64,000 nucleotides of DNA from Pseudofrankia sp. DC12 (GTDB taxonomy: Bacteria; Actinomycetota; Actinomycetes; Frankiales; Frankiaceae), in the NCBI RefSeq assembly GCF_000966285.1, contig NZ_KQ031391.1, forward strand, positions 1,636,640 to 1,700,639, in the 5' to 3' direction. The first letter of the stretch is position 1; the number at the start of each line of letters is the position of its first letter. The position numbers and the translations under genes were made by a program. The notes under the pieces are model-generated. The model worked only from the letters and a program-made list of their open reading frames with translations, searched no databases and was not told the origin of the DNA. Of the stretch, positions 16,637 through 62,663 are shown one piece after another.

Positions 16637-18517
16637 TCAGCCTTCCATCCGTGCCACCACACGATAGGTGTTGGAGCGGTCTCCTTGGCGCATATACGAA
16701 GTCAGTGCGGCACCGACGGTTCCGGCGAGCACCGCCGGGACGATCGACGCGGTCAGCACCGTCCCACGGGCTAGCCAACGGATCGGGGACGACGGCGAGC
16801 CGGGCAGCCACGGCAGCGTCGGGCTCGGCGCCACCGCCTGGGTCATCAGGCCCACCGCGGCGAGCAGGTCGCCGGGCTGGTGCGCCGCACCGAACTGGAC
16901 CAGGACGGTCCGCATCCCCCGGTCCTCGAGGGCCGCGACCAGGTTGTCGACCGGGATCAGCTGACGCACCCCAGGGACCCCCCAGCCCGGCCAGTACCGG
17001 CCCAGCCGCCGGGCGCCGAGACCGGCCGGGTTCGGCAGCTCGGCGACCAGGAGCCCGCCCGGGCCGAGCGCCTTGGCGGCCGCGTCGAGATCCTCGGACG
17101 GGTCGCGGCTGCGTTCCAGGTAGCCGAACATGCTGATCACGTCGTAATGGCCGGTCACCGCCTCGGCGATGTCAGCGAAGCTCGCCGGGTAGGCCCGGTC
17201 GACCCAGCCGCGCCGCCGCGCCTCGCCGATGGACTCCGCCGGCCCGACCCCGTCGAACACTGCCCGCGGCCAGACCGTACGGGCCGCGTTGCAGAACGAG
17301 CCGACCCCGGCGCCGACGTCCAGCCAGGCCCGCGGCCGCAGAAACGGCCGCACCAGCTCGGCCCGGGCCCGCAGCCGGGCGGCCTTGGCGGCGACGGCGA
17401 CCTCGGTCTTCGCCGCGTTCATGCCGTCCTGGCGGTCTCGTTCATAAAGCACCCGGCCGGCCGGGGTCAGCCGCGGGTTCTGGAACAGATGGCCGCAGAC
17501 GAGGCACTCGTCGAGCTGGAAGCGTCCCGGCTTGCGTAGCTCCAGATCGGGCGAGACGAGCCGGACCCGGAGCTCGGGCGACCCGCACCAGGGGCAGTCC
17601 GGCCACGGGCGGGCGAGGAACATCTCCGGGCCGTCGGCGAAGGCCCGCTGGTAGCGGGCGCGGCGGGCCGCCGACTCGGCCTTGGTCTTCGCCTTGACCG
17701 GGTCGGCCGGCAGGCCGGCGGCCTTGGCCTCGGAGGCGGCGCGCTGCTGGCGCCGCCAGGCCCGGACCGTGCTGATCGAGTACTCCACCCCGGCCGTGAT
17801 CCGCACGATCGGGCTGCGGATCAGGTCGCGGGGGGCGACGGGAACCCGCCCCGCACAGACGAAGAAGGGCTGGCACCAGAACAGCGCGGTCGCGGCGAGG
17901 CCCCACGGCCGGTTCAGGTGCACCCCGACGATCGTCGCGATGTCCCGCAGCGTCGGGTAGATGTTGTTCATCGGCCGGACGGCCGACCAGCACCGCCGCT
18001 GAACCCGCACCCGGGTCGCGCCGTCGTCGCGGGCGGCCCGCAGCCCGGGCAGCACCGCGAGGTCGGTGCTCGCGGGCGCGTGGCGCTTCAGCTTCTCGGT
18101 GACCTCGACGAGCTCGACCGGGGTGTAGTCGTCGCGCACCTCGACGCCGGCCCGATCCGCGGCCTCGGCCCGAACCAGCAGCGCCTGGAACGCGCCTCGG
18201 CCCGGGGCGAGCCGGTTGGCGCGGTAGGTGCGGGTGTCGACCATGCGGGCGACGTCCAGCGCACGCTCGATCGTGAGGTCGGCCGGGATCAGGTCGAGGA
18301 CGTCGAGCCGCTCCCGGCTGGCGTGGTAGCTGGCGGACCGCTTCGCGGCCTCGGTCAGCTGGACGCCGGCGGCGCAGATGAACAGGTGGTCCGGGTCGGT
18401 CGGCCGGCCCGACGCCGGCAGCGTGTCCAGCCGGCGCAGCCGGCCGCGCAGCCGTATCCCGTTGACCATCAGCCCCAGCACGACAAAGATCGGCGCCCAG
18501 GAAAGTACGGTCACCAC
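16637..18517 (-). CDS. Membrane-anchored zinc-ribbon/SAM-methyltransferase protein
   Basis: A 626-residue protein with an N-terminal membrane span (VLSWAPIFVVLGLMVNGI), about 290 residues of unrecognised sequence, a four-cysteine zinc-ribbon-like pair (CPWCGS near residue 309, CLVCGH near 339), then a class I methyltransferase core. The core has the SAM motif WLDVGAGVGSFCNAART (about 397) and YDVISMFGYLERSRDP. A probable second span lies near 585-610 (LTASIVPAVLAGTVGAALT). The Cys-pair-then-SAM layout recalls sugar- and lipid-modifying C-methyltransferases. It is the last gene of the lipid-synthase operon, 10 bp after the glycosyltransferase stop. I infer membrane-associated methylation of the glycolipid or its sugar. 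GTG 18517 or GTG 18514 can be the start. Confidence 0.7.
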   Translation of the reverse strand: MVTVLSWAPIFVVLGLMVNGIRLRGRLRRLDTLPASGRPTDPDHLFICAAGVQLTEAAKRSASYHASRERLDVLDLIPADLTIERALDVARMVDTRTYRANRLAPGRGAFQALLVRAEAADRAGVEVRDDYTPVELVEVTEKLKRHAPASTDLAVLPGLRAARDDGATRVRVQRRCWSAVRPMNNIYPTLRDIATIVGVHLNRPWGLAATALFWCQPFFVCAGRVPVAPRDLIRSPIVRITAGVEYSISTVRAWRRQQRAASEAKAAGLPADPVKAKTKAESAARRARYQRAFADGPEMFLARPWPDCPWCGSPELRVRLVSPDLELRKPGRFQLDECLVCGHLFQNPRLTPAGRVLYERDRQDGMNAAKTEVAVAAKAARLRARAELVRPFLRPRAWLDVGAGVGSFCNAARTVWPRAVFDGVGPAESIGEARRRGWVDRAYPASFADIAEAVTGHYDVISMFGYLERSRDPSEDLDAAAKALGPGGLLVAELPNPAGLGARRLGRYWPGWGVPGVRQLIPVDNLVAALEDRGMRTVLVQFGAAHQPGDLLAAVGLMTQAVAPSPTLPWLPGSPSSPIRWLARGTVLTASIVPAVLAGTVGAALTSYMRQGDRSNTYRVVARMEG

Positions 18518-18527
18518 GGCAACGAGC

Positions 18528-19730
18528 TCAGCCCAACAGCTTCTCGATGTGCGCCGCGGCCGCGGTCACCCCGCCGGCGGCGGCGAACTCGGCGCGAAGC
18601 CGGTCGGCGGACGCCCGGATCTCCGGGTCGTCGAGGACCGCCCCGACGGCCGCGGCGACCCCGGCCGCGTTGACCCGGCCGAACCGGACCCGCACGCCGG
18701 CGCCGGCCCGGGTGACCTGCTCGGAGATCACCGGCTGGTCGTCGCGCACCGGGGCGACCACCAGCGGTACCCCCATCGACAACGCCTCGCAGACGGTGTT
18801 GTTGCCGCCATGGCAGACGACAGCCGAGAGCCGGCCCATCAGTTCCAGCTGCGGCACGGCGGGACGCACGAGCACGTCGGCCGGCGCGGCGGCGGCCAGG
18901 TCATCGACGATGCCGGGCGGCGCGACGACGATCGTCTGCGCCCGGTCTGCCATCCCGGCGAGTGCCTCGGTCGCGACGCGCAGGAACCGGCCGCCGGCCT
19001 CCCGGGTGACGGTGCCGAGCGAGACGAGTACCTGGGCGCGCGCCGGGTCCAGCCAGTCCCACGGGAAGTCGTCCGACGGCTGGCGCAGCCCGGCGGCCGA
19101 GCCGATGAACTCCGTCCGCGGCGGCAGCGCCGCGACCGCGTCCGGAGTGCGCAGCAGCCCGGTGACCGAGCAGACCAGGGTCAGCTGGTCGGAGAACCGG
19201 AGGTCGCCGCGGGCGGCCTCGGGCGCCGGGACGCCGGCGGCCACCTGGAACTCACGCAGCTGGTCGACGACCCACTGGCCGACCGCGGCGATCACCCCGT
19301 ACGGGTTGTCGAACTCGGCCGAGGTGGTCGCGAGCGTCACCCAGCGCAGGCCCTGGCGCCGCGCGAGCAGGGCACCACCGACCGCCTGCTGGTCCACTAC
19401 GACGACGTCGGGATGCCACTTCTCGACGATCGGCTCCAGATCCCGGGCCATCGCCGCCCCCAGCGGGAGCAGGAAGTCCTCCCACAGGAACTTGAACGAG
19501 CCCGTGCCACGCTGGCGGCGCGACTTCTCCTCGACCTCGGCCCGCGCCTCGGCGGTGAGGTCCTCGGGCAGCTCGACCAGCCGCAGCGGCCCGGGCACCA
19601 GGGACCGCACGACGCTCGCGTGACCGGCGACCGCGACGTCGTGGCCACGTTCCGCGAGCTCGCCGGCGACTCCAATGGCCGGGTAGACGTGCCCGGCCAA
19701 TGGCGGGACGACGAACAGGATGCGAGCCAC
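18528..19730 (-). CDS. GT1-family (MGT-like) glycosyltransferase
   Basis: A 400-residue GT-B glycosyltransferase. The N-terminus ILFVVPPLAGHVYPAIGVAG is the acceptor-domain signature of the macrolide/UDP-glycosyltransferase group. The C-terminal donor-binding block reads AVVCHGGNNTVCEALSMG followed by VPLVVAPVRDDQP, where H-G-G-N-N-T binds the nucleotide-sugar phosphates and D-Q is the sugar-contacting pair. It lies between the hydrolase and the methyltransferase in the same operon. I infer transfer of a sugar from a nucleotide donor to a hydroxyl on the acyl/polyketide product. The donor and linkage cannot be told from sequence. Confidence 0.88.
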   Translation of the reverse strand: MARILFVVPPLAGHVYPAIGVAGELAERGHDVAVAGHASVVRSLVPGPLRLVELPEDLTAEARAEVEEKSRRQRGTGSFKFLWEDFLLPLGAAMARDLEPIVEKWHPDVVVVDQQAVGGALLARRQGLRWVTLATTSAEFDNPYGVIAAVGQWVVDQLREFQVAAGVPAPEAARGDLRFSDQLTLVCSVTGLLRTPDAVAALPPRTEFIGSAAGLRQPSDDFPWDWLDPARAQVLVSLGTVTREAGGRFLRVATEALAGMADRAQTIVVAPPGIVDDLAAAAPADVLVRPAVPQLELMGRLSAVVCHGGNNTVCEALSMGVPLVVAPVRDDQPVISEQVTRAGAGVRVRFGRVNAAGVAAAVGAVLDDPEIRASADRLRAEFAAAGGVTAAAAHIEKLLG

Positions 19731-19775
19731 TCCTGATCACTCCCCGATGGTTCGGTCTTTGCCTGACGCCGAGAC

Positions 19776-20813
19776 TTACTGTTCGCGCTGCGCCGCCCCG
19801 GCTGAGGCCCGGGGCTCCTTTCGTGACGCGCCGACCGCTGCCGAAGTTGCGCTGGCGCCAGCCGGGACATGCTGCGGGACGGCCGCGGCCCGCTCCGCGC
19901 TCTCCCCGGCCTCGGCGCGCGCCGCCCGGCGCTCGGCGTTGAGGTCCGCCGGGATGGTCCGCGAGAGCACCCAGTCGGCCAGCTCGAACTTCTTGCCCTC
20001 GTGCAGCTGGTAGGCCGGCATCTGCTCGTCGCGGTGCAGCACCCACCAGCGCAGCAGCTCGCGCAGGTAGTCGGCGGCCTCGCGCAGCACCATGTGGGTG
20101 TGGTGTTCGAGCACCACCAAGGTGCAGTCTGGCACCAGCCGGGCCAGGCCGTCACCCTGCTCGATGATCTCGGAGTTGCCGCCGTAGATGGCGAGCACCG
20201 GCGCCGGGAGGGCGCTGAGGCGCTCCGGCGAGAACGGCTTCGTCGCCAGCATGTCCTCGGCGACCGTGGTCTCGCGCAACAGCGCCTGCGCCGAGCGCAT
20301 GATGCGCCCGACCGCGCGTCCCGCGCTGAACTGCAGCCACTCCTCGACCTCGTCGTCGGAGATGGCGGCCAGTACCTGGGTGAGCGAGCGAGCCATCTCC
20401 TCGCCGAGGCCCTCGATCCGGAACGGCGGCTCGATCAGCGTGAGGCTCGCGACCCGGTCGGGGTACTCGACGCCGTAGGTCAGCGCGAGCGTGGCGCCAT
20501 AGCTGTTGCCGACCAGGTGTACCGGCCGATCGATGCCGAGCTCGCCGAGCACCGCCGTGAGGTCGGCCATCGCAGTGGCGATGCCGTAGCCGCTTGGAGT
20601 GCGCTCGCTCTTGCCGTGCCCGCGCAGGTCGTAACAGACGACCTCACAGCCGGCGTCGGCCATCGCATTGCCCAGCGAGAAATAGAAGCTCGCCAGGTTG
20701 TCGATCACCATGCCATGCAGCATGACGACGACAGGTGCATCGGGACGCGCGCCACCGCTCGGCGCGAGCCGCTGGACATGCAGCCGCACGCCGTTCGCGA
20801 CGATCTCAGCCAC
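19776..20813 (-). CDS. Alpha/beta-fold hydrolase with C-terminal extension
   Basis: A 345-residue protein with an alpha/beta-hydrolase fold: oxyanion region VVMLHGMVID, nucleophile elbow GNSYG (Ser near residue 104) and a late His in HHTHMVL. At the usual acid position the sequence is LAIYGGNSEII, so the normal Asp is missing or replaced. About 95 residues follow the fold (RDEQMPAYQLHEGKKFELAD onward) and end in an Ala/Glu/Arg-rich tail. GTG 20813 is a well-supported start, with AAAGGAG eight bases upstream. It lies between the free ACP and the glycosyltransferase. As no thioesterase domain is present in the synthases, this protein is a candidate for product release or acyl transfer. Confidence 0.8.
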   Translation of the reverse strand: MAEIVANGVRLHVQRLAPSGGARPDAPVVVMLHGMVIDNLASFYFSLGNAMADAGCEVVCYDLRGHGKSERTPSGYGIATAMADLTAVLGELGIDRPVHLVGNSYGATLALTYGVEYPDRVASLTLIEPPFRIEGLGEEMARSLTQVLAAISDDEVEEWLQFSAGRAVGRIMRSAQALLRETTVAEDMLATKPFSPERLSALPAPVLAIYGGNSEIIEQGDGLARLVPDCTLVVLEHHTHMVLREAADYLRELLRWWVLHRDEQMPAYQLHEGKKFELADWVLSRTIPADLNAERRAARAEAGESAERAAAVPQHVPAGASATSAAVGASRKEPRASAGAAQREQ

Positions 20814-20921
20814 GGTTGGACTCCTTTCTCGACATGCCATCCCGGCACGTCGACGTCGCCAGCCCCACCAGCCCTACTGGTACTACCAGGCCCGTCGGCG
20901 CCGCCGGCAGGCGGTCCATGC

Positions 20922-21257
20922 TCACGAGCCGACGCCGGCCCGCAGCGAGTCGGCGATGAAACGGACGACCTCACCAACCTGCATGTTGATGACCTTGTCG
21001 ACGTCCATCTCGGCAAGGAAGCCGACGAAGTCGACCTTGTCCCCGTAGGTGACCCGCATCCGGTCGGCGAGGGTCACGAACTCGATGCTCTCCAGCTCGA
21101 GGTCCTCGTTGAACGAGGTGTCCATGGTGATCTCCATGTCCACCACGTACTCCTCGCCGATCACCTCCCGCAGCATCTCGGCGACCTCACCGAGAATCCG
21201 CGTGTCGAGGGCATCCAGCGCCGGGTCGGCCGGACGGAGGGTGTCCTGCATGGTCAT
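20922..21257 (-). CDS. Stand-alone acyl carrier protein of the lipid operon
   Basis: A 111-residue ACP. The phosphopantetheine attachment site reads NEDLELESIEFVTL, with Glu in place of the common Asp before the modified Ser. Helix 1 (ILGEVAEMLREVIGEE) and helix 3/4 (VGEVVRFIADSL) are recognisable, with an insertion (YGDKVDFVGFLAEMDVDKVI) between helices 2 and 3. ATG 21257 has AAGGAG ten bases upstream. It sits 70 bp after the second synthase and 108 bp before the hydrolase. It could carry the starter or the finished chain to the hydrolase or glycosyltransferase. It differs clearly from the primary-metabolism AcpP at the right end of the window. Confidence 0.88.
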   Translation of the reverse strand: MTMQDTLRPADPALDALDTRILGEVAEMLREVIGEEYVVDMEITMDTSFNEDLELESIEFVTLADRMRVTYGDKVDFVGFLAEMDVDKVINMQVGEVVRFIADSLRAGVGS

Positions 21258-21327
21258 GTCGTCTGCGCTCCTTCGTCAGGGGTGCTCAGGTTTCCGGGTT
21301 CACGGGCTTCGGCGGCCGCTGGCCCGG

Positions 21328-24300
21328 CTACCCGGTGCCGACCTGGTGGTCGGGCTCGATGGCCTGGTCCGCCGGGACCAGTTCGGATAAGGCCCGCGGC
21401 AGGCGGGCACGGGCACCCCGCTCGACGGAGGGCGACGTCCAGGCCACGACGTGGTCACCGATCCGGACGCCGTCGGTGCCGCCGGTCTCCCGCCGCACCC
21501 GGCCCATACCGTCGACGGTACGCACCGCCACCCAACGTCGGCGCAGGTAGCCCGTCACACCGCCCGCCGCCGGGTCCACGGCGCCCTCGTCCGGCGCCGG
21601 GTCGGCGAGCACGGTGACCCGCAGCAGCAGCGGCGGCTCGGCCAGCGCCGACTCGGCCGGGCGCGGCGGCGGCGACTTGATGCCGTCGGCGGTCACCTGG
21701 TCGGGCCCGAGGACCTCACCGGCCGGGTCGTCGACATCCAGTCCGAGCTCGATGGCCAGGTCGACACCGGAGTCGCTCACCCCGGCGCCGACGGGCACGA
21801 CCAGGTCGACGACGAACCGGCGCGGCCGGCCCAGCAGCCCGGTGCCGTCGGCCTTGGCGACGGCCTCCTTGGCCGCCCAGATCCGGGCGAACCAGGCGGC
21901 CGCGGCCAGCTGGGCGGCCTCGTCCTCGGCGCCGGTGCCGGGCTCGGCCGGGCCCACCTGGGCCGCCTCGGCGGGGGGCCGGACGGCGTCGGCGTTGCGC
22001 TTGGGGTCTGCGGCACCCGCGACCAGCGCGGCGTGCAGCTGGCGCTCGGCCGGGGTGAGCCCGGCCGCGTAGGCACCGGCGGTCCGCACCGCGACGGTCT
22101 CCAGGTCGATGCCGACGTCACCCTCGGAGTCGACCAGCGCGACGGCCAGGTCCACCTTGTGGGCGATCGAGAGGTTGGGCAGCGGTCCGGCCGGGATACC
22201 CGGCCGCTCCGGGACCTTGGTGATCACCGGCCGGCCGCTCGCGTCGTTGTCGACGGTGACCTCGATGCCCCAGACCGGCCCGGCTCCGCGTGCCCACAGC
22301 CAGCGGCGGACCGCGTCGGACGCCGCGATCCGGCCGAGCAGCCATTCCCGGGCCGCACGTGGGTTCTTCCCGGTCAGCACCCGGCGGCGTTCGGCGTCCA
22401 GGAAATGGCGGACGACCAGCTCCCGGGAGGCGATGTCGCGCCAGTAGTCCGGGACGACGACCCAGCCGTCCGGGCGCGGCTCGGCGACGGTGTTGCGCTC
22501 CGGGTCGCGCATCAGCAGCCACAGCCAGGCGTTCGCCGTGAACCGCCGGTCGGTCCAGCCGGTGACCTCGCACCAGACCGTGCCGTCCGCCGCCCGGACC
22601 TCCAGGTCGGCCGTGACGGTCTTGGCCGCGATGTCGCGGATGCGGGTCACGCAGGTCATCCGGTCCCCGGGGGCCGGATCGGCGCCGTAGAAGCGCATCT
22701 CGGTGACGGCCTGCGGCAGCAGCAGCGAGTCGACGTCGAGGTACTGGGTGGCCCAGTACCCGTAGAGCTGGCCGATCGTGTCGAGCAGCGCACCCGGGGC
22801 GCCGGTGACGACCAGCTGGCCGCGCGCGCCCAGCGGGGCGATCGCGTCCACGTGGGTGATGCCCTGGTAGCTGGGGCCGTGGAACATCCACCGGCCGCCG
22901 TAGAGCTCCGCTGCCTGGTGCGGCGACGGGACCTCGTCGGCCAGCCGCCCGTCGGGGGGCAGGTCGACGCTGGACGACGTGTGGGCGGGGGCCGCGGGGA
23001 AGGCGTCACCGAACACGACGGTCACCCGGGCGTAGCCGTCCATCGAGACCCGCACCGCGCCGTCGGGCAGCTCGGTGCAGGCGATGGTCACCTCGACCGC
23101 CGGCTCGATGGCGACCCAGCGCAGCGCCCGGACGTCCCGGACGGCGACGACCACGCGGCCGGGGGCGAGCGCCCGCGCCTCGTCGATCATCATCTCCAGC
23201 ACGGCGGTCATCGGCATGACCGGGAAGCGGTCCGACCGATCCTTCCAGCCGGGTGGCTGCCGGTAGAAGCAGTGATCGATGACATGCGGCAGCTCCGCCA
23301 GCGACAGCGTCCGGCGCACCGTCTTCGTGATCGGGCCGGGGCCGCCGACGACGACCGGCGCGGCGCGCGGCGGCGCCGCGGGCGCCGGTGCCGTCACCGG
23401 GGTCGGCGGCGCGGGGTGAGCCACGCCATTGCCAGCCGCGCCATTGCCGGCCGCGCCCGGACCGCCGGGACCGCCGGGACCGGCCGGGGCGGTCCGCGGC
23501 CGGGTCAGCAGGGAGCCGGGCGCCCAGGCGGCGGCCGGCACCGCGGCACGGCGGCGGTCCCAGCTCGCCTGGACGTCCGCGAGTACCGACGCCGTCTCCG
23601 CCAGCGCCAGCCCGAGCTCCGCGAGCACCGGATGGTCCACCGCCCCGGCCAGGGGCACGGGTGGGACCGGATCAGCCGTGGCGGCGGTTGGGACAGGACC
23701 GTGGGCAGGCGCGGCGGTGGGCCGGCCCACGGACGCGAGGTCGCCGAGCAGCGCCGGGGCGTCCGGCCCGAGCCGGACCATCGGCGAGCCCAGCCGCAGC
23801 AAGGTCGGCTGCCCGCCGCGCCGCGTCGGCGTGGCCGCCGGCCGCGCGGGCTCGGCCGTACCGTCAGGCGCCGTCGACGCTGCCGGCGCGGGGGCGCCCG
23901 GTGCTGCAGAGGGACGCTGGCGGCAGGGCAGCAGATCAAGCCGGGGCGCGCCGCCCTCGGCCCAGACCGCGGCCGCGACGCGGCGCAGCTGGTCGAGGCC
24001 AGAACGCTTCGGGCTGTTCGACACGACCGTCACGTGGTCAGAAGCAGGCGCCTCACCCGGCGCCGCGCCGGCCCGGGTGGTCCCGGCCAGCGTGTCGTCG
24101 ACGAAGCCGGCGACGCTGCCCACGCCGACCTGGACGAACATCCGGACGCCGTCGGCGTACAGCCGCTCGGTGAGCTGGCGGAACCGCACCGGCTCCAGCA
24201 GGTGGCGCACGGCCAGCTCACGGATCGCGCCCGCTTCGGCCGGGTAGGGCGCGACGGTCGTCGCCGACCAGACCGGGACGACCGGGCTGGCCAGCGGCAT

Positions 24301-26760
24301 CGCGGCCATCGGGGAGTGTTCCAGATCCAGGTAGGGCCGCAGGAACGGAGAGTGGAACCCGGACCGGAACGGCAGCACCTGGCCGAGGACGCCCTTGGCC
24401 CGCAGCCGGGCCAGCGCCTCGGTGACGCTTGCCTCCTTGCCGCAGATCACCGACTGGTGCGGGCAGTTGTCGTGCGAGACGACGATGTCCGGGAGCCCCG
24501 CGATCGCCTCGGTCACCAGCTCGACACCGCAGCCGACCGCGCCGAAGAAGACGCCGGGCACCTCGACCGACCCGGGGTCGAAGCCGCTGATGAACGCGTC
24601 GACGAAGTCGTTCGGGACCATGCCCGACGAGATCATCGCGTTCCACTCGCCGATGCTGTGCCCGCCGACCAGGTCGGGGACGATCCCGAGCCGGCGCAGG
24701 GCGAGGTCGAGAACCCGGCCGACCTCGACGCTGGCCCGCCCGTGGCCACCGAGGACGCCGGTCTCGCCCAGGTCCGGCATCGGCAGCTCGAAGTGCGCGC
24801 AGACGTCGTCGATCCGCGGCGAGAACTTGTCCTCGAGCCCGCAGAACAGGAACGCCAGCCGCCCGGTCTGCTCGGTCTCGGGCGCGCGCGGCGCCGGGAC
24901 GGGGCCGCCGGCGGTGGCGGCGGCGGCGGCGGGCCACCCAAGCAGCGGGTTCTTGGTGAACCAGAGGTCGTTGCGGCCCCGCCAGGGGGTCCCGCGCTTG
25001 ACGATTGTGCGGGCCAGCGCGAGCCGGCGCGGGGTCGGCGCGACCAGCGCGAGCCGGCACGGCCCCCCGGTCGGCGGGCTGGCGGCGTCGTCGCGGGCGA
25101 GCAGCTCCGCGTCGGGAACGGCGAGTTGGGCGGCGAGCTCGGCGGGCGTCGCGGCGACGAGCAGAAGAACCGGCTCCGCCGTCGGATCGGCCGCCGGCGT
25201 CACGGGCCCGGAGCCGGTAGCCCCGACGGGCACCGCGGTGGCGACCGGCGCCGGGAACGTGCCGGCGAGCGACGGCGCCGTCCGGTCGGGCGCCTCTTCG
25301 AGCACGGCGTGCGCGTTGATGCCACCGAAGCCGAAGGCGTTGACGCCGGCCCGGCGCGGCCCGTCACCGATCGGCTGTGCCCAGGGCGTCGCGGTCAGCA
25401 CCGGGGCGAACCGGGTGCCGGCGAACGCGGGGTGTGGGTCGTCGCAGTGCAGCGTCGGCGGCAGGGTGCGGTGGCGCAGCGCCAGGGCCGCCTTGATCAG
25501 TCCGGCGGCGCCCGCGGCCGGCATGGTGTGCCCGATCATCGACTTGACCGAGCCGAGCCCGATCGTCGCTGCAGCCGGGCCGGCCGGGCCGAAGACCTCG
25601 GCCATGCTGGCGAGCTCGGCCGCGTCGCCGGTCGGCGTGGCGGTGCCATGCGCCTCGATCAGGCCGACGGCGCCCGGCGCCCGCGGGTCCAGCCCCGCGT
25701 CGGCCCAGGCCCGGCGGACGGCGGAGGCCTGGCCCTGCGCGGCGGTCGCCATCAGCGAGGACGTCCGCCCGTCGCTGGCCATCCCGGTGCCGCGCACGAC
25801 CGCGTGGATCAGGTCGCCGGCGGCCAGCGCGTCGGAGAGCCGGCGCAGCACCACCAGGCCGACGCCCTCGCCGATGAGCACCCCGTCGGCGCCCTTGTCG
25901 AACGGGCGAATCCGCTGCGACGGCGAGAGCGCCCGCAGCATCGCGAAAGTGGACCAGAAGGTCGGCTCGTGCACGATGTGCGCACCACCGACGATCATCG
26001 TGTCGGCGCGCCCGAGCCGCAGCTCGCGCACGCCGGCGTCGAGGGCGACCAGCGACGACGCGCAGGCCGCGTCGACGGTGTAGGCGGGGCCGCGCAGGTC
26101 GAGCCGGTTGGCGATCCGGGACGCGGCCAGGTTCGGCACCAGCCCGATCGCCGCCTCGGGCCGCTCCGGGCCGAGCTTGGCGACGAACGCGTCGTGGACA
26201 CGCTCGATCGCGTCGTCGGGCAGGTCGGGCAGGACCTCGCGCAGGGTGACCGCGACCTGGCGGGCGGTCTTGACACGCTGCTCGATCCGGGCGAACGCCG
26301 GGCCGAAGTAGCCACCCCGGCCGAGCACCACGCCGACCCGGTCGCGGTCGGTCAGCCGGTCGGTGCCGCCCGCGTCGGAGATCGCCTCGGCGGCGAGCCG
26401 GAGCGCCAGCATCTGGTCCGGCTCGGCCCACTCGACCGCGATCGGCATGATGCCGAACTCGGTCGGGTCGAAGGTGGCCAGCTCGTCGACGAACCCGCCG
26501 CGCCGCGTATAGAGCCGGTCGGCGCGGGGCGTGCCCGGCGGCGGGGTGGTGGCCGCCTCCGGCCGGTGGAACTCGTCGTCCCAGCGGCCGGGCGGCGCCT
26601 CCCGGATCGCGTCGATGCCGCCGGCGATGTTCGCCCAGTAGCGGTCCAGGTCGCCGGCACCCGGGTACAGCGCCGCCATCCCGACGATCGCGACCGGCTC
26701 ACCGCCAGCGCCGTCGGGACCGAGGTGGCCCGCCCTGGGATGGTCAGCCATGGAAGGCAT
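21328..26760 (-). CDS. Multidomain lipid/polyketide synthase, KS-AT-DH-PPTase
   Basis: An 1810-residue megasynthase subunit. Ketosynthase (about 20-470): VAIVGMAALYPGAG, catalytic Cys in VDAACASSLVALDAG (about 230), IEAHGTATPTGD and GSVKSMIGHTMPAAG. Acyltransferase-like domain (about 600-930) with GGHSIGEWNAM. Hotdog/dehydratase-like domain (about 1140-1430) around LPHVIDHCFYRQPP and FPVMPMTAVLEMM. C-terminal 4'-phosphopantetheinyl transferase (about 1490-1740) with GDVGIDLETV and WAAKEAVAKADGTGL, able to activate the operon's ACPs. It has no ACP, KR or thioesterase. The gene overlaps the upstream synthase by 17 bp (or 8 bp if ATG 26751 is used), so the two are translationally coupled. The layout resembles the Pfa/enediyne/secondary-lipid synthase branch. 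Confidence 0.88.
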   Translation of the reverse strand: MPSMADHPRAGHLGPDGAGGEPVAIVGMAALYPGAGDLDRYWANIAGGIDAIREAPPGRWDDEFHRPEAATTPPPGTPRADRLYTRRGGFVDELATFDPTEFGIMPIAVEWAEPDQMLALRLAAEAISDAGGTDRLTDRDRVGVVLGRGGYFGPAFARIEQRVKTARQVAVTLREVLPDLPDDAIERVHDAFVAKLGPERPEAAIGLVPNLAASRIANRLDLRGPAYTVDAACASSLVALDAGVRELRLGRADTMIVGGAHIVHEPTFWSTFAMLRALSPSQRIRPFDKGADGVLIGEGVGLVVLRRLSDALAAGDLIHAVVRGTGMASDGRTSSLMATAAQGQASAVRRAWADAGLDPRAPGAVGLIEAHGTATPTGDAAELASMAEVFGPAGPAAATIGLGSVKSMIGHTMPAAGAAGLIKAALALRHRTLPPTLHCDDPHPAFAGTRFAPVLTATPWAQPIGDGPRRAGVNAFGFGGINAHAVLEEAPDRTAPSLAGTFPAPVATAVPVGATGSGPVTPAADPTAEPVLLLVAATPAELAAQLAVPDAELLARDDAASPPTGGPCRLALVAPTPRRLALARTIVKRGTPWRGRNDLWFTKNPLLGWPAAAAATAGGPVPAPRAPETEQTGRLAFLFCGLEDKFSPRIDDVCAHFELPMPDLGETGVLGGHGRASVEVGRVLDLALRRLGIVPDLVGGHSIGEWNAMISSGMVPNDFVDAFISGFDPGSVEVPGVFFGAVGCGVELVTEAIAGLPDIVVSHDNCPHQSVICGKEASVTEALARLRAKGVLGQVLPFRSGFHSPFLRPYLDLEHSPMAAMPLASPVVPVWSATTVAPYPAEAGAIRELAVRHLLEPVRFRQLTERLYADGVRMFVQVGVGSVAGFVDDTLAGTTRAGAAPGEAPASDHVTVVSNSPKRSGLDQLRRVAAAVWAEGGAPRLDLLPCRQRPSAAPGAPAPAASTAPDGTAEPARPAATPTRRGGQPTLLRLGSPMVRLGPDAPALLGDLASVGRPTAAPAHGPVPTAATADPVPPVPLAGAVDHPVLAELGLALAETASVLADVQASWDRRRAAVPAAAWAPGSLLTRPRTAPAGPGGPGGPGAAGNGAAGNGVAHPAPPTPVTAPAPAAPPRAAPVVVGGPGPITKTVRRTLSLAELPHVIDHCFYRQPPGWKDRSDRFPVMPMTAVLEMMIDEARALAPGRVVVAVRDVRALRWVAIEPAVEVTIACTELPDGAVRVSMDGYARVTVVFGDAFPAAPAHTSSSVDLPPDGRLADEVPSPHQAAELYGGRWMFHGPSYQGITHVDAIAPLGARGQLVVTGAPGALLDTIGQLYGYWATQYLDVDSLLLPQAVTEMRFYGADPAPGDRMTCVTRIRDIAAKTVTADLEVRAADGTVWCEVTGWTDRRFTANAWLWLLMRDPERNTVAEPRPDGWVVVPDYWRDIASRELVVRHFLDAERRRVLTGKNPRAAREWLLGRIAASDAVRRWLWARGAGPVWGIEVTVDNDASGRPVITKVPERPGIPAGPLPNLSIAHKVDLAVALVDSEGDVGIDLETVAVRTAGAYAAGLTPAERQLHAALVAGAADPKRNADAVRPPAEAAQVGPAEPGTGAEDEAAQLAAAAWFARIWAAKEAVAKADGTGLLGRPRRFVVDLVVPVGAGVSDSGVDLAIELGLDVDDPAGEVLGPDQVTADGIKSPPPRPAESALAEPPLLLRVTVLADPAPDEGAVDPAAGGVTGYLRRRWVAVRTVDGMGRVRRETGGTDGVRIGDHVVAWTSPSVERGARARLPRALSELVPADQAIEPDHQVGTG

Positions 26761-29700
26761 CCGCCTCGCCGCACAGGTAGACGACCTGCGCCGGGCCGGT
26801 CGGGGTGGACAGCTCGCGCAACAGCGCGGCGACCCCCTCGGCGGGCTCGATCAGGCCGATCCCGCGCCGGGCGTACTCACGCTCGAGCTCGGCGGACACC
26901 ATGCCACCGCCCTCGGCACGCCAGGGGCCCCAGTCGACGCTGACGACGCGGCCCGGGATTCCCGCCGCGTCGGCCGAGCCGGGCAGAACGGTAGCCGGGT
27001 ACGTCCGGAACACCCCGGCGTGCGCGTTCGCGAGTGCGTCCAGGGTGTCGTTGGCGGCCGCGTAGTCGACCTGGCCGCGGTTGCCGAAGACGCCGGCGAC
27101 GCTGCCGAACAGGACGACGAAGCGGGGGCCGCCGAGGTCGCGGCCGCCGGGCGCGGCGGAGCCGGTCTCGCGCTGGCACCGGTCGCGGCGCAGCGCGCCG
27201 AGCAGCGCCCGGGCCCCGTCAACCTTGGTCGAGTACACCCGGGCGAACGACTCGGGCGTCTTGTCCCGCACGAGCCGGTCCTCCAGCACACCGGCGCCGT
27301 GGACGACGCCGTCGAGCCGGCCGCGGCGGGCATAGACGTCGGCGACCACGGCCCGCACGGCGGCGGCGTCCCGGACGTCGACGGCGTGGTAGCGGACGCT
27401 CGCCGCCGTGCGGTCGAGCTCGGCGAGGGTCGCCCGGACCTCGCGCTCGGCGAGCAGCCGGGCCAGTCGGGCCTCGATCTCCGCGGGCTTGCGCATCCCC
27501 GTGGCGATCAGCGCCCGGCGCAGCGCCGGGGCGTCGGCGGCACCGGCGGTCGCCGGGTCCTCGGGGGCGGCCGGTGGCGGGGTACGGCCGATCAGCTCGA
27601 CGTGCGCACCGGACCGGCGCGCGATCTCCACGGCGAGCCGCGCGGTGATCCCACGCGCGCCGCCGGTCAGGAGCACCACCGAGTCCGGTCCCAGCTGGGC
27701 TGTCTCCTGCGCGGCGACCGCCTCGGCCGCTGCCGGCTGGGCGAGCTCCACCGGGATCACCCGCAGGGCCGAGCGGACGCCGTCGCGGTGGCCGACGACC
27801 AGCGGAGCGTCGTCGGCGAGCATCTCGACGAGCAGCGACTCGGCGATCCGGCGGGGCGCCTCCTTCGGGTCGACGTCGACGACCCGGACGGCCACGTCCG
27901 CCAACTCGTAGGCGAGCGTCCTGGCCAGGCCCGCGAAGCCGGCGCCGGCGGCCGGCCCCGGGTCCACGCCGGCCGCGGCGCGGCGGCCGAAGTCGCCGCC
28001 CAGGCCGCTGGCGAGCACGAGCCGGCGGGTACCGCCGCCCGCTGCGCCCGGGCCGATCGCCGCGGCCTTCAGCGCGGCGAACGCCCCAGGCAGCTCCGCG
28101 GCCGACCCGGTGGCCCCGTCCAGCGCGGCGACCCACAGCAGCCCGTCGGCCGCGACCCCGCCGCCGAGCTGGGCGGCCAGGTCGGGGGCGCCGGCATCAA
28201 GCAGCCGGACCGCGGCGCCCGCCTGCTCCAGCAGGTCGGCGAGCTCCAGGCCGACACCGAGGCCACCCTCGACGACGGCGAACCGGCCGCCGGCCAGCAA
28301 GCCACCGGCCGCGCCGGCGCGGGAGGCGAGCGCCTCGGCCACGGTCAGCGCCGCCGGCAGCGGTGCCGGCTCGACGACGAACCTGCGCAGCGGAATCCGC
28401 GTGCTCGGGGCCGCTACGGCGTCTGTCGCGCTCTCCGGCTCGCTCGCGGCACCGCTGGTGTGCGCGACGATCCAGTCGACGATGCCGTCCACCGTCTTGA
28501 TCGCCGCCAACTCCTCCACCACCGACTCATCCAGCTCGCCACCCTCGGCACCCGCCAGACCAAGCCGACCCGCCAACTCCCCCAAAATCTCCGTCCGCTT
28601 GATCGAATCGATCGACAGATCCGCCTCCAGGTCAAGACCCGGCTCCAGCATCTCCGCCGGATAACCCGTCTGCGAACCGATCACCTCGACGACCGCGTCC
28701 AACACCACACCACGGCCCGCCGGCGCGCCGGCACCCGGCGAGGCGGCGGCGGGTGCCGGCGGCACCGGCTCCACCGGCAGGGCCTGCGCGGGGATCGCCA
28801 GCGGCCGCCCGGCGGCCCCGGCCGGCTGCGTGCCACCAGGCTGGAAGGCCCGGGGCGTGACGCCCGTGAGGCCCAGCCCGTCGAGCAGTGCACCGTCGTG
28901 GCCCAGCGCGGCCGGGTCCTGGAAGGCGGCCGGGTCATAGGAGCCGCCGCGGCCGAGGTAGCCGAGCACAACGTCACGCTGCGCGGCGACCAGGTCCCGG
29001 GTGGTCCGCAGGAACTCCAGCACCGCGGCGTCGGCCGGCCGGGTGACGTCCGGCGCGGCCGACAGCGCGACCGGCCCAGGCGCGGCGACGAGCGGCGCGG
29101 CCAGTTCCAGGACCGCCGGCGGCTTGAGGCCACCGGCGACCGGCTTGCCGTCCGCGGTACGCACGTAGGCGCCGTCGACCAGCCAGCCCGGCCGGCGGGG
29201 TGCCTGCGCGACGGAGACGGCCTTGGCGTCGCGGCCGGCGAACAGCGGGGCGACGTCGACGGGGACACCCGCTGCGGCCAGCTCGGCCACGGCCACCAGG
29301 AGGCGGCGCAGGCCTGGCTCGCCGGCGACGTCGGTGGCGACGGCCCGGTGCGGCCGGCCGGCGAGGATCTTCCCGACCAGGCCGGTGAGCACCCGGCCGG
29401 GCCCGGCCTCGACGAACGTGCGGACCCCGGCGGCGTACATCGCCTCGACCTGCTCGACGAACCGGACCGGCGCGGCGACCTGGCCGGCCAGCGTCGCCCG
29501 CACCTCGTCGCTCGTGCCCGGGTAGGGGGCTCCGGTCGTGTTCGCCCAGACCCGAATGTCGGCCGGGCGCACGTCGAGGCCGGCGAGCACCTCCGCGAGC
29601 GTGCCTGCGGCACCGGCGACGACCGGGCTGTGGAACGCGGCGGCGACCGGGATCTGCTTGGCCGCGAGCCCGGCGGCCGACAGCGCGGTGAGCGCCGCGC

Positions 29701-32700
29701 CGACGGCAGCGGTCGAACCGGAGATGACCGTCTGCTTCGGGGCGTTCTGGTTGGCGAGCACGACCTCGCCGGCCAGGCCACCGGCCGCGGCGAGGGCGGC
29801 GCGGATCTTCTCCGCGGTGGCGGAGACGGCCGCCATGGTGCCCGGGTCGTCGCCGGCCGCCGCGAGGATCGCGGCGGCGCGCGCCTCGGAGAGCCCTACC
29901 AGGTCGGCCTGGTCGAGGGCGCCGCCGACGGTCAGCGCGACCAGCTCGCCGTACGAGTGGCCGGCGAGGTCGTCGGGGCGGATGCCCAGCGTGCCCAGCA
30001 GCTGCGCCATCGCCAGGTCCGCGAGGCCGAGGGTCGGCTGGGCGGCCCGGGTGTCGGTGATGGCGGCGACCTGCGCGTCCGCCTCGGCCCGGCTGAACGA
30101 GGCCGGCGGGAACATCGTGTCGGCCAGGTGCGGGCCGTGGGCGAGCAGCTCGCGCAGCCGCGGGAACGTGACGAACAGGTCCGCGAGCATCCCCGGCCGC
30201 TGGCTGCCCTGGCCCGGGAACAGGAACCCGACCCGGCCCGGGCCGGCGGCGTCGTCGGCCGTCTCGGGCGCGACGAACAGCCCGGCCCGCGGGTCGGACT
30301 GGAACGAGCGCGCCCGGGCGAGCGCGGTGGGCAGCTCGTCGAGGTCGGCGACGACGAAGGCGAGCCGTACCGGCCCGGACCGGTCATCGGCGACCGTGCG
30401 GGCCAGGTCGCGCAGCCGCCACGGCCGCCCGGCGGACTCGTTCGTCTCGGCCAGCTCGGCGAGCCGGTCGAGCCGGCGGGCCGCACCGGCCCGGTCCGCG
30501 GCGCGGATGACGAACAGCTCAGCCGGCCACTGGCCCAGCCCGTGCGCCGGCTCTGGCGCGCCGTCATACGCCGAGAGAACGACGTGGAAGTTCGTGCCGC
30601 CGAAGCCGAACGCGGACACCCCGGCGTGCCGCTCGGCCGCCGGCGCGGCCCACGGGCGCGCGGCCCGCTCGAAGGTGAACGGGCTGGACCCGGCCTCCCA
30701 GGCCTCGTTGGGCCGGGTGATGTGCAGGGTCGGCGGCCGGACCCCGGCCGCGAGCGCCCGGGTGGCCTTGATCAGGCCAGCCATCCCGGCAGCGCACTTG
30801 GCGTGGCCGATCTGCGACTTCACCGAGCCGACGGTGATGCTGCCCGGCTCGGCGCCGTGCTCGGTGAACACGTCGGTGAGGGTCGAGAGCTCGGTCCGGT
30901 CGCCGACCACGGTGCCGGTGGCGTGCGCCTCGACGAGGCCGACCTCGGACGGCGACACCCCGGCCCGCCCGTACGCGCGCTCCAGCGAGAGGACCTGGCC
31001 GGCGCGGCGCGGCGCGGTCAGGCCGAGCGCCCGCCCGTCCGACGAGCCGGCGACGGCCCGGACCACGGCCTGGATGCGGTCGCCGTCGCGCTCCGCGTCG
31101 GCCAGCCGCTTGAGCACGACCACCGCGACGCCCTCGCCGAGCGTGATCCCGTCGGCTGTCGAGTCGAACGACCGGCACCGGCCGCTGGGCGACAGGGCGT
31201 GCACGGAGGCGAACATCAGGAAGTCGTTCAGGCCGTTGTGGGTGTCGGCGCCGCCGCAGAGCACCATGTCGGCGTTTCCGGCGACGAGCTCCTTGCAGGC
31301 GGCGTCGAGGGCCGCGAACGACGACGCGCAGGCGGCGTCGACGGTGAAGTTCGACCCGCCGAGGTCGAGCCGGTTGGCGACCCGGCCGGCGATGACGTTG
31401 GCCAGGATCCCGGGGAACGAGTCCTCGTCCAGCTCGGGCAGGTGGTCGTCGAGCTCGGGCGGAAGGTCGCCGAGCAGGGACCGGAAGCCGGCCCGCAGCC
31501 CGTAGGCGCCGGAGAGGTCGGCGCCCGCCTCGGCGCCGAAGACGACGGAGGTGCGGGAGCGGTCGAACGAGCGGCCGGGCCGCCGGCCCCCTGCCTGCTT
31601 GTCACCGCCGATCCCGGAGTCGTAGCCGGCGTCGCGCAGCGCCCTGGCCGCGACCTCCAGCGCGAGCAGCTGGCCGGTCTCGATGCTGCGCAGCGAGCGC
31701 GGCGGGATGCCGTAGGCGAGCGCGTCGAACGGCACCGGCGGCAGGAAGCCGCCCCACTTCGACGGGGTCATCTTCCCGGCGTCCTTGACGAACGCGTCCT
31801 CGGCGTAGAAACGGTCCGCGTCGAACCTGTCCGCCGGCACCTCGGTGACCGCGTCGACACCGGAGACGATGTTCGCCCAGAAGGTCTCGACGTCCGGAGC
31901 GCCCGGGAAGACCGCGGCCATGCCGACGATCGCGATGTCGAGCGACCGGGCCGTCTCGCGGACGGCGGCCACCGACCGCGCCGCCGCGTCCTGCCGCGTC
32001 CCCTCGACCACCGCCTCGGAGCCGGCCTGGGCCGGGACCTCGACGGGGGCCAGGCCCAGCTCGGCGGCCCGGCGCGCGAGCGCGTCGCCCGCGCCCGTGG
32101 TGACCTGCTCGTGCAGCGCGGGGACGGTGGTCCGCTCGGCCCGCAGCGCGGCCACCTGGCCGATCATGAACATGCCCTCGGCCGCCTGGGTCGACGGGTC
32201 GACGGTCACCAGCGCGCCACCGTCGCGGCGGACGCCCTTGCTGGCGATCCGCAGCCGTCCGAGGTTGAGGCTCTCCAGCTCGGCCCACATCTCCTGGCGG
32301 CCGCGCCCTGCGGCGGCCAGGTCCGCCCGGGCGGCGAGGAAGGTGTCGACGAACGGCGAGCGGACGCACCGGGTGGCGTGCCCTGGCGAGGTCTCCAGCA
32401 GGACGGTCCGCTCGCAGGCGAGCGCCGCGTCCTGGAAGCCGGGCTGGATCGCGCCGGTCGCCACCGCCTCGTCCGTGAACAGGTAGGCGGTGCCCATCAG
32501 GGCGCCGACCTTGGCGCCGCGGGCCGCCAGCGGCGCCGCGACGGCCGCGACGGCCGCGGCCGACGCCTCGTCGTGCACCCCGCCGGCGAACAGCAGGTGC
32601 AGCTCCTCGAAGAACGTCCCGCCGGCCCGCTCGCCGGCGGCCAGCAGCCCGGCGACCTGGGCCTCCCAGAGCGCGAAGCTCGCCCGCGGCCCGACGTGCC

Positions 32701-34285
32701 CGCCGCACTCGCGGCCCTCGAAGACGAACTTGCGCGCGCCGTCGGCGACGAACCGGTCCAGCAGCCCCGGCGAGGGGACGTGCAGGAACGTGTCGATCCC
32801 GGCGGCCTCCAGCGGCGCCGCCTGCGCCGGCCGGCCGCCGGCGATCAGCGCGCACGGCGGCCGCACGGCCAGGACCGCCTCAAGCTGGGCGGTGCGCACC
32901 TCCGGCGGCGCGAAGCCGAGGATCCCGACGCCCCATGGCAGGTCGCCGAGCAGCTCGGCCGTCTCGGCCAGCAGCGCCCTGGACTGCTCGCCGGTCAGCA
33001 GCGCGAGCGCGAGGAACGGCAGCCCGCCGCCGTCCGCGACCGCCTTCGCGAAGCCGGGGACGTCGCTCACCCGGGTCATCGGGCCCTGGGCGAGGGGGTA
33101 GCGCAGGCCGCGTGCGGCGGCGAACGGCGCGCCGGCCGCGAGCGGGCGCAGGCTGGCCGCGGTGGCCAGCTGGTCGCTGATCGAGGCCCGGACGGCGCCG
33201 ACGACGCCGCTGGCGGTGACATACCGGTCGGCCAGCGGGCCGGCGAAGGCCCCGTCCTGACCGATCGGGAGGAGCTGTGCCCGCAGGTCCCGGGCGCCCA
33301 GCCGGGTGGCGACGTCGGCCGCGGTGGGCAGGCCGTCCGCGCCGGCCGGCAGGGTGCCGTCGGAGGCGATCTCGCCCCCGGTGTCCCGCAGGTCAGGGGC
33401 CGTCTCGGCGGCGGCCGGCGGCCGGGCGAGATCGCTGGTCGGCGCCGCGGTCAGGCGTGCGACCGGGAGGTCTGGGCGGGTGTACACCCGGTGGTCGCCG
33501 ACCAGGCTGGTCTCGCTGCCGTCCATGGCCCGGATGGCGCTGGCCACCTCGGCGGGCAGCTCGGCCTCACGAACCAGGGCGAGCTGGGCGTCCAGGACGA
33601 CGCCGGCCGCGCCAAGGGCGACCGCGCCGGCCGCCGAGTGCGGCCCGATCCCGCCGGCGGCCCAGACCGGGGCCGGCGCGCCCGCCCGGGTCGTCAGGCC
33701 CGCGGCGCGCAGATGCTGCAGAAGGGTGAACGTGGTCAGGTCGCCGACCAGGCCGCCGGCCTCACTGCCGCGCGCGACCACGCCGTCCGCCCCGGCCGTC
33801 AGGGCCGCGCGCGCGCCGGCCACCGAGGTCACCTCGACGAGCACCCGGCGCCGCGCCGCCGGCCCGGCCGCGTTGGCGACGTCCCAGCCGGGGGTCGGCG
33901 CGGAGGTTGTCGGCCGGGTCTTAGCAAGCAGGTCCGGGTCGGCGAGCAGGACGAGATCGACGCTGGACGGCAGGTCCTCAGGACCGAGCGGCGCCGCCGG
34001 GCCGACCCGGACCGCGAACGCGGCGCACCAGCGGGCGGCGTCGGCCAGCGCCCGCCGGGCGCGGGCGGCGTCCCGGCCCAGATCGAGTACTCCCAGGCCA
34101 CCGGCCCGCTCGACGGCCGCCACCAGCGCCGCGTTCGGCTCCGCGAACGGGGTCACGACGGCGACGAGCTCCCGGGCTGCCGGCGTCGGTGCTGGCCAGG
34201 TGCCGGTCGCGGGGACCGGCACGGTTGCCGCGTCGCCCGGCCGGGTGGGGCGGACTGGGTCGAGCTGACTGGAAGTCCTGGTCAT
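26744..34285 (-). CDS. Multidomain lipid/polyketide synthase, NPD-NPD-KS-AT-ACP-KR
   Basis: A 2513-residue megasynthase. Two nitronate-monooxygenase/PfaD-like barrels come first. The first (about 10-230) has GSEAGGLVGD, lacking the usual His; the second (about 310-640) has RYPLAQGPMTRVSD and GRECGGHVGP with the His kept. Ketosynthase (about 785-1230): DIAIVGMAAVFPGAP, Cys in VDAACASSFAALDAA, EAHATGTVVGD, GSVKSQIGHAKC. Acyltransferase (about 1350-1650): FLFPGQGSQRPGML, GHSYGELVAL. A single ACP (about 1850-1935) with LEADLSIDSIKRTE. Ketoreductase (about 2200-2480): VVLLTGGARGITARL. ATG 34285 is chosen for its strong ribosome-binding site (AGGAGGA, eight bases upstream). The flavin barrel probably supplies the enoyl reductase function, as PfaD does. 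Confidence 0.9.
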   Translation of the reverse strand: MTRTSSQLDPVRPTRPGDAATVPVPATGTWPAPTPAARELVAVVTPFAEPNAALVAAVERAGGLGVLDLGRDAARARRALADAARWCAAFAVRVGPAAPLGPEDLPSSVDLVLLADPDLLAKTRPTTSAPTPGWDVANAAGPAARRRVLVEVTSVAGARAALTAGADGVVARGSEAGGLVGDLTTFTLLQHLRAAGLTTRAGAPAPVWAAGGIGPHSAAGAVALGAAGVVLDAQLALVREAELPAEVASAIRAMDGSETSLVGDHRVYTRPDLPVARLTAAPTSDLARPPAAAETAPDLRDTGGEIASDGTLPAGADGLPTAADVATRLGARDLRAQLLPIGQDGAFAGPLADRYVTASGVVGAVRASISDQLATAASLRPLAAGAPFAAARGLRYPLAQGPMTRVSDVPGFAKAVADGGGLPFLALALLTGEQSRALLAETAELLGDLPWGVGILGFAPPEVRTAQLEAVLAVRPPCALIAGGRPAQAAPLEAAGIDTFLHVPSPGLLDRFVADGARKFVFEGRECGGHVGPRASFALWEAQVAGLLAAGERAGGTFFEELHLLFAGGVHDEASAAAVAAVAAPLAARGAKVGALMGTAYLFTDEAVATGAIQPGFQDAALACERTVLLETSPGHATRCVRSPFVDTFLAARADLAAAGRGRQEMWAELESLNLGRLRIASKGVRRDGGALVTVDPSTQAAEGMFMIGQVAALRAERTTVPALHEQVTTGAGDALARRAAELGLAPVEVPAQAGSEAVVEGTRQDAAARSVAAVRETARSLDIAIVGMAAVFPGAPDVETFWANIVSGVDAVTEVPADRFDADRFYAEDAFVKDAGKMTPSKWGGFLPPVPFDALAYGIPPRSLRSIETGQLLALEVAARALRDAGYDSGIGGDKQAGGRRPGRSFDRSRTSVVFGAEAGADLSGAYGLRAGFRSLLGDLPPELDDHLPELDEDSFPGILANVIAGRVANRLDLGGSNFTVDAACASSFAALDAACKELVAGNADMVLCGGADTHNGLNDFLMFASVHALSPSGRCRSFDSTADGITLGEGVAVVVLKRLADAERDGDRIQAVVRAVAGSSDGRALGLTAPRRAGQVLSLERAYGRAGVSPSEVGLVEAHATGTVVGDRTELSTLTDVFTEHGAEPGSITVGSVKSQIGHAKCAAGMAGLIKATRALAAGVRPPTLHITRPNEAWEAGSSPFTFERAARPWAAPAAERHAGVSAFGFGGTNFHVVLSAYDGAPEPAHGLGQWPAELFVIRAADRAGAARRLDRLAELAETNESAGRPWRLRDLARTVADDRSGPVRLAFVVADLDELPTALARARSFQSDPRAGLFVAPETADDAAGPGRVGFLFPGQGSQRPGMLADLFVTFPRLRELLAHGPHLADTMFPPASFSRAEADAQVAAITDTRAAQPTLGLADLAMAQLLGTLGIRPDDLAGHSYGELVALTVGGALDQADLVGLSEARAAAILAAAGDDPGTMAAVSATAEKIRAALAAAGGLAGEVVLANQNAPKQTVISGSTAAVGAALTALSAAGLAAKQIPVAAAFHSPVVAGAAGTLAEVLAGLDVRPADIRVWANTTGAPYPGTSDEVRATLAGQVAAPVRFVEQVEAMYAAGVRTFVEAGPGRVLTGLVGKILAGRPHRAVATDVAGEPGLRRLLVAVAELAAAGVPVDVAPLFAGRDAKAVSVAQAPRRPGWLVDGAYVRTADGKPVAGGLKPPAVLELAAPLVAAPGPVALSAAPDVTRPADAAVLEFLRTTRDLVAAQRDVVLGYLGRGGSYDPAAFQDPAALGHDGALLDGLGLTGVTPRAFQPGGTQPAGAAGRPLAIPAQALPVEPVPPAPAAASPGAGAPAGRGVVLDAVVEVIGSQTGYPAEMLEPGLDLEADLSIDSIKRTEILGELAGRLGLAGAEGGELDESVVEELAAIKTVDGIVDWIVAHTSGAASEPESATDAVAAPSTRIPLRRFVVEPAPLPAALTVAEALASRAGAAGGLLAGGRFAVVEGGLGVGLELADLLEQAGAAVRLLDAGAPDLAAQLGGGVAADGLLWVAALDGATGSAAELPGAFAALKAAAIGPGAAGGGTRRLVLASGLGGDFGRRAAAGVDPGPAAGAGFAGLARTLAYELADVAVRVVDVDPKEAPRRIAESLLVEMLADDAPLVVGHRDGVRSALRVIPVELAQPAAAEAVAAQETAQLGPDSVVLLTGGARGITARLAVEIARRSGAHVELIGRTPPPAAPEDPATAGAADAPALRRALIATGMRKPAEIEARLARLLAEREVRATLAELDRTAASVRYHAVDVRDAAAVRAVVADVYARRGRLDGVVHGAGVLEDRLVRDKTPESFARVYSTKVDGARALLGALRRDRCQRETGSAAPGGRDLGGPRFVVLFGSVAGVFGNRGQVDYAAANDTLDALANAHAGVFRTYPATVLPGSADAAGIPGRVVSVDWGPWRAEGGGMVSAELEREYARRGIGLIEPAEGVAALLRELSTPTGPAQVVYLCGEADAFHG

Positions 34286-62632: not shown

Positions 62633-62648
62633 GCCGGGCGTCGCGGGC

Positions 62649-62663
62649 GGCTCCGCCGGAGCC
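62649..62663 (+). terminator. Hairpin between fabH and acpP
   Basis: GGCTCC (62649-62654) pairs with GGAGCC (62658-62663) around GCC, with extra flanking GC pairing. It may act as an attenuator or RNA-processing site that sets a different level for acpP. Confidence 0.4.

Follow-up and report, generated by a model that had tools for sequence, protein, structure and literature searches.

A probable Type M secondary-lipid synthase operon of Pseudofrankia sp. DC12 and its putative role in glycolipid synthesis independent of nitrogen fixation

Six genes on the minus strand of the DNA analysed here (the window, a 64-kb stretch of the Pseudofrankia sp. DC12 genome; positions 16637-34285) very probably constitute, judging from domain layout and orthology, the 'Type M' secondary-lipid synthase that was catalogued in 2011 from genomes including those of Frankia ACN14a, CcI3 and EAN1pec, with stress on nitrogen fixers (Shulse and Allen 2011, PMC3098273). 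The reading that we lean towards, as somewhat probable, is that this operon joins a long-chain acyl synthase to a dedicated sugar-tailoring module, and that the product is a glycolipid of general use in Frankiaceae, unrelated to nitrogen fixation. What appears to be new, from comparison of sequences, is the tight link of the synthase to one module of glycosyltransferase, hydrolase and acyl carrier protein (ACP), its homology with Type P synthases, and its independence from nitrogen fixation.

The first gene (26744-34285; its ATG is preceded by AGGAGG) encodes PKS-A, a synthase of the order NPD-NPD-KS-AT-ACP-KR recognized by Pfam, NCBIfam and catalytic residues, and the second (21328-26760) encodes PKS-B, of the order KS-AT-DH-PPTase according to Pfam and catalytic residues. 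They are followed by genes for a free ACP (20922-21257), an alpha/beta hydrolase that is probably a thioesterase or acyltransferase (19776-20813), an MGT-like GT1 glycosyltransferase (18528-19730), and a SAM methyltransferase that has a Zn-ribbon and, at its N-terminus, a hydrophobic helix (16637-18517). With the hydrolase start taken as the GTG at 20813 behind AAAGGAG (the longest open reading frame begins at 20840), the gaps from PKS-A through to the methyltransferase are -17, +70, +108, +45 and +10 bp, reproducing exactly the initial annotation of six genes on one strand separated by -17 to +108 bp. A promoter scan of the operon region returned no promoter-like site, and a terminator scan placed no terminator-like site between the six genes; four terminator-like sites were predicted (compared with 2.5 in shuffled sequences), those of the minus strand lying inside the PKS-A and methyltransferase genes. 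From the sequence we infer that the six genes form one co-transcribed operon. The arrangement is not due to chance, because relatives have the same gene order and the same six genes are annotated on a Streptomyces plasmid. At 58835-63046, approximately 25 kb from the Type M operon, the plus strand encodes a regulator of the PucR type, a FabD-like acyltransferase, a FabH-like synthase and an ACP. These genes are likely to form a FAS II operon, which would make the synthesis of ordinary fatty acids a separate process.

Both domain orders had been proposed in the initial annotation and were recovered by Pfam together with catalytic residues in aligned relatives. PKS-A has two NMO/NPD stretches, KS, AT and KR, and a single carrier domain (28556-28699, minus strand; residues 1927-1974) that has one DSIK-type motif but falls just under the PP-binding threshold (20.1 bits versus a cut-off of 20.8). 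Its second NPD domain (NPD2; 32081-33109, minus strand; residues 457-799) has a FabK fold by structural comparison of a model, and is thus predicted to be a FabK-like enoyl reductase, in agreement with the earlier suggestion that enoyl reduction was probable. In the model of NPD1, residues 36-280 contain eight strands at high pLDDT, and the structural comparison hardly touched this domain; NPD1 is missing in 4 and partial in 1 of 62 aligned PKS-A sequences, where the available stretch ends in or near it. PKS-B has KS, a partial AT, DH (PS-DH) and a PPTase (ACPS) domain (21814-22116, minus strand; residues 1549-1649) that scores 31.8 bits against a cut-off of 25; the catalytic motifs of the latter are present in the window and altered in some relatives. 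The catalytic residues of the KS, AT and DH of PKS-B are invariant in 74/74 aligned sequences (residue counts used 74 of 80 PKS-B and 62 of 66 PKS-A sequences, short pieces being left out). There is one KS stretch in each protein, both with an intact Cys-His-His triad, so neither contains a CLF. Among 66 PKS-A sequences, one ACP motif is found in 46, two in 14, three in 1 and none in 5 that are truncated or unread, and the number differs even within Frankiaceae, since L087 and L088 have two motifs, L086, from the same genus as the window, has three, and the window has one. Searches of PDB sequences with the operon proteins returned general PKS, GT1 and hydrolase relatives.

The free ACP was identified through a DLELESI motif (LESI) that includes the carrier serine, conserved in 79 aligned sequences, and has no relative among PDB sequences at a threshold of 0.001. 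The hydrolase belongs to Abhydrolase_1, and many hydrolases are among its PDB relatives, as is a chain that resembles thioesterases (3qit, 'Polyketide synthase'). The glycosyltransferase passes the cut-offs of the broader GT1 families PF06722 (EryCIII-like_C) and PF00201 (UDPGT) and retains the conserved motifs GH, near the N-terminus, and RDDQP, but scores only 147.6 bits against TIGR01426, the MGT subfamily (curated cut-off 260); the designation 'MGT-type' therefore holds at the level of GT1 and not of the subfamily, and because of this low score the acceptor cannot be read from the family. The enzyme initially annotated as a membrane methyltransferase is indeed a methyltransferase (Methyltransf_23) with one hydrophobic stretch (residues 1-23), but a second is weak (approximately residues 585-606), so that the label 'membrane' holds only in part; the rest consists of a Zn-ribbon, whose CPWC and CxxC do not vary among 26 selected sequences, and a SAM domain. 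It has no relative among PDB sequences at 0.001. A fold search with its structure model (pLDDT 82) gave the Zn-ribbon sugar methyltransferases MtmC, KijD1 and TcaB9 as top matches (TM to target 0.41-0.45), a weak hint of sugar methylation since many prenyl-diphosphate and other small-molecule methyltransferases match about equally well (TM to target up to 0.64).

Scanning the genomes of GTDB with PKS-B yielded at least 575 confirmed relatives among at least 591 stretches, of which the best 80 were kept; being the best matches, these loci are close relatives by choice. With five more taken by coordinates they make 85 loci; 72 of these have 4.5 kb or more of sequence past PKS-B, and the 13 with a short flank or a missing PKS-B end were left out. 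Among these 72 close relatives, the ACP, hydrolase and glycosyltransferase genes are each found downstream of PKS-B in the same direction in 70. L034, a fragment of PKS-A, has none of these genes, L037 has the synthase without the ACP and glycosyltransferase, and L024 lacks the hydrolase. The methyltransferase gene is co-directional in 46 and not in 26, and lies on the opposite strand in L035 and L042. A fused ABC exporter gene directly follows the glycosyltransferase gene in nine loci (L008, L009, L047, L048, L050, L060, L062, L067 and L089), in the position that the methyltransferase gene occupies in other relatives; no examined locus has both co-directionally (p 3.7e-5 for the exclusion, uncorrected for kinship, with eight of the nine exporter loci in one Streptomyces-rich clade). 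This placement suggests that the product is exported in those lineages; within the window, no ABC exporter gene adjoins the operon.

Among the best matches listed are relatives in Streptomyces, Sulfidibacter and Teredinibacter, and the unit itself recurs in Sulfidibacter (Acidobacteriota) and, with the glycosyltransferase and hydrolase genes swapped, in Teredinibacter (Pseudomonadota). All six genes are annotated on the linear 869-kb Streptomyces plasmid NZ_CP108492.1 (L090), with 4-bp overlaps at three junctions; IS3 and IS6 transposase genes a few kb downstream of this cassette indicate a possible route of transfer. Only 2 of 72,556 plasmid records have a relative of the glycosyltransferase (E<=1e-40), in both cases beside a PKS-B match. 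In a FastTree phylogeny of PKS-B with long branches flagged, the Frankiaceae sequences that group with the window form a single branch of 12 (support 100), and PKS-B of a second DC12 cassette (G000:C1:5093000-5108000; L089) lies elsewhere, adjoining a Kutzneria sequence. This second cassette is divergent (42% identity to the window unit in PKS-A, 43% in PKS-B, 38% in the ACP, 37% in the hydrolase and 39% in the glycosyltransferase), is followed by an ABC exporter gene, has no methyltransferase gene, and encodes a PPTase without part of the KEAxxK motif. The same locus (5.10 Mb) was considered as an enediyne-type synthase, an identification rejected in favour of a second cassette with ACP, hydrolase, glycosyltransferase and exporter.

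Within the Frankiaceae, 32 of 35 genomes have a match to the DH-PPTase part of PKS-B (E<=1e-20), and the same 32 have one to the glycosyltransferase (E<=1e-60). Of 43 glycosyltransferase matches, 41 are located 1.2-2.5 kb from a PKS-B match; the remaining two are a contig-edge fragment (G002:C301) and a match on G017:C108 without PKS-B. The latter (G017:C108:120100-121284), of 59% identity, is an additional glycosyltransferase copy in its genome. Six PKS-B matches, in turn, lack an adjoining glycosyltransferase at E<=1e-60 (G030:C368, G034:C58, G012:C140, and second loci of G001, G005 and G031). Comparison of DC12 with G029 of the same genus gave dN/dS ratios of 0.20 for PKS-B, 0.06 for the ACP, 0.10 for the hydrolase, 0.15 for the glycosyltransferase and 0.14 for the methyltransferase. 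The closest named relative among the best 80 kept is Frankia sp. AgB1.9 (90%).

Orthologues accompanied by all of the ACP, hydrolase, glycosyltransferase and methyltransferase genes are present in G001 and in G003 (which has a single PKS-B match), genomes that we take to be those of Frankia ACN14a and CcI3. The Type M synthase of Renibacterium, still called uncharacterised in a 2026 paper, consists of a fused pfaDA and a fused pfaBC with a PPTase domain (PMC13291983), the same layout as PKS-A and PKS-B. The window unit differs from Type M as presented in the available text of PMC3098273 in that no glycosyltransferase is mentioned there and nitrogen fixers are stressed. A search of the open-licence literature found no product for a Type M or hglE-type synthase with a glycosyltransferase. 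The closest typed synthase is Type P (Azotobacter ArsA/ArsD, with a copy on a Beijerinckia plasmid), of which the NPD(two stretches)-KS-AT-ACP-ACP-KR protein is colinear with PKS-A (39% over 2071 columns for Beijerinckia) and the DH-PPTase protein matches residues 1113-1649 of PKS-B (29% over 592 columns). Type P synthases make C22-C26 chains for Azotobacter phenolic lipids (PMC3098273), with chains of C23-C25 ascribed to ArsA and ArsD named as a PPTase (PMC4824345), and the Beijerinckia strain is not known to make phenolic lipids, according to the available text of PMC3098273. Unlike the window unit, which has no type III PKS domain among its six genes, Type P is accompanied by type III PKS genes that serve the head group, lacks a second KS-AT fused to the DH-PPTase, and has a nearby glycosyltransferase that is GT4-like rather than GT1. 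Type M can be read, from these alignments, as a Type P-like synthase with an extra KS-AT on its DH-PPTase protein and with the ACP, hydrolase and GT1 enzyme where Type P has type III PKS enzymes.

The initial annotation, whose interpretation is supported in part, named polyunsaturated fatty acids and cyanobacterial heterocyst glycolipids as products of the Pfa-type family and, should the host be Frankia, found a role in vesicle or envelope glycolipids attractive. Neither a polyunsaturated fatty acid synthase nor a vesicle lipid tied to nitrogen fixation fits this operon well. That the operon encodes a polyunsaturated fatty acid synthase, with the glycosyltransferase and methyltransferase as chance neighbours, is very improbable: PKS-A and PKS-B share the KS-AT-ACP-KR core of the superfamily with Pfa synthases of Types A and B and score 838 and 442 bits against the PfaA model TIGR02813, but both scores are under its cut-off of 1010; instead of a KS-CLF pair, two DH domains and tandem ACPs (four to six in Type A), the window pair has one KS stretch per protein with a full triad, one PS-DH stretch and one ACP motif, with enoyl reductase domains fused in front and the PPTase behind; and the glycosyltransferase is linked in 32/32 synthase-bearing Frankiaceae genomes. 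Likewise improbable, if less so, is an envelope lipid that resembles heterocyst glycolipids and shields the nitrogenase of Frankia vesicles. The hgl island (Type F) resembles the Type M unit in combining an iterative synthase with a glycosyltransferase, and some Type M relatives also have an ABC exporter, but hglC is KS-CLF-AT without DH (PMC3098273), whereas the window unit has DH and no CLF. In favour of the vesicle lipid, the conservation of Type M in three nitrogen-fixing Frankia has been remarked on (PMC3098273), and 24 of the 25 Frankiaceae genomes (out of 35) with NifH above cut-off have the synthase. Lipids of the related Types F and P also have their place in envelopes of differentiated cells. 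The exception, G026, is 100% complete and has neither synthase nor glycosyltransferase; moreover, DC12 is an atypical Nod-/Fix- isolate (PMC4541282), the best NifH match in its genome (one contig of 6,884,336 bases) scoring 32 bits against a cut-off of 394, and AgB1.9 is one of a group of strains in which nif genes are reportedly missing (PMC8542509). The synthase is kept by 8 of the 10 genomes without NifH over the cut-off, missing in G014 (94% complete) and G016 (63% complete), and the 35 genomes give no support for an association of NifH with the synthase (Fisher p 0.19, for a small sample uncorrected for kinship). Since G029 also has no NifH over the cut-off, its low dN/dS ratios with DC12 indicate that the pathway is maintained without nitrogen fixation. 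Retention of the operon by non-fixing Frankia, the relatives in Streptomyces, Sulfidibacter and Teredinibacter, and the description of Frankia vesicle envelopes as hopanoid all argue against the vesicle lipid; the product is probably not a nitrogen-fixation lipid, although a vesicle role confined to nitrogen-fixing strains may exist.

A more serious but still rather unlikely alternative is that the six genes make a glycosylated polyketide that diffuses away, as an antibiotic or signal would, and not a structural lipid. The glycosyltransferase is nearest to macrolide-type GT1 enzymes, the unit is patchily distributed outside the family (21 of 358 genomes, within a class sample in which 53 of 393 match at E<=1e-40), it occurs on plasmids near IS elements, and nine relatives have the exporter. 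Against this, most antibiotic clusters are not nearly universal in a family as the synthase is in Frankiaceae (32/35), the six-gene unit shows neither a regulator of its own nor deoxysugar genes, and the closest typed synthase, Type P, makes alkyl chains. For the glucosyl-lipid antibiotics of the fattiviracin and glucolipsin group, considered as a product class, no gene cluster is described in the titles and opening lines of abstracts among the papers listed.

Returning to the glycolipid pathway, the sequence itself shows which domains and catalytic residues are present, that gene order is conserved and dN/dS low, and that genomes without NifH have the unit; chain length, saturation, sugar, order of steps, export and role we infer as follows. 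PKS-A and PKS-B would act jointly as an iterative, malonyl-using synthase, the carriers of which would be armed by the PPTase of PKS-B; the KR, DH and FabK-like NPD domain would reduce the chain, which, like that of Type P synthases, would become long and for the most part saturated. Takeover or release of the chain may then fall to the free ACP and the hydrolase, the GT1 enzyme may attach a sugar to a hydroxyl or carboxyl group of it, and the methyltransferase may modify the sugar or head group, the product most likely being an envelope or exported glycolipid. We propose, tentatively, that this is a near-universal glycolipid pathway of Frankiaceae that depends on neither nitrogen fixation nor symbiosis and couples a Type P-like long-chain synthase to a dedicated ACP-hydrolase-glycosyltransferase head-group module, which recurs in three phyla and on plasmids.

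Type M, singled out in 2011 for its conservation in nitrogen-fixing Frankia, is now decoupled from nitrogen fixation by its retention at low dN/dS in Fix- relatives, and its chemical model would be Type P rather than the polyunsaturated fatty acid synthases. Since it keeps company with one particular glycosyltransferase, hydrolase and ACP, a synthase that had no name becomes a glycolipid pathway open to testing, and the compact six-gene cassette of a Streptomyces plasmid brings expression in a laboratory host within reach. If the proposal is true, the ACP-hydrolase-glycosyltransferase module on a Type P-like synthase would define a new class of bacterial glycolipids.
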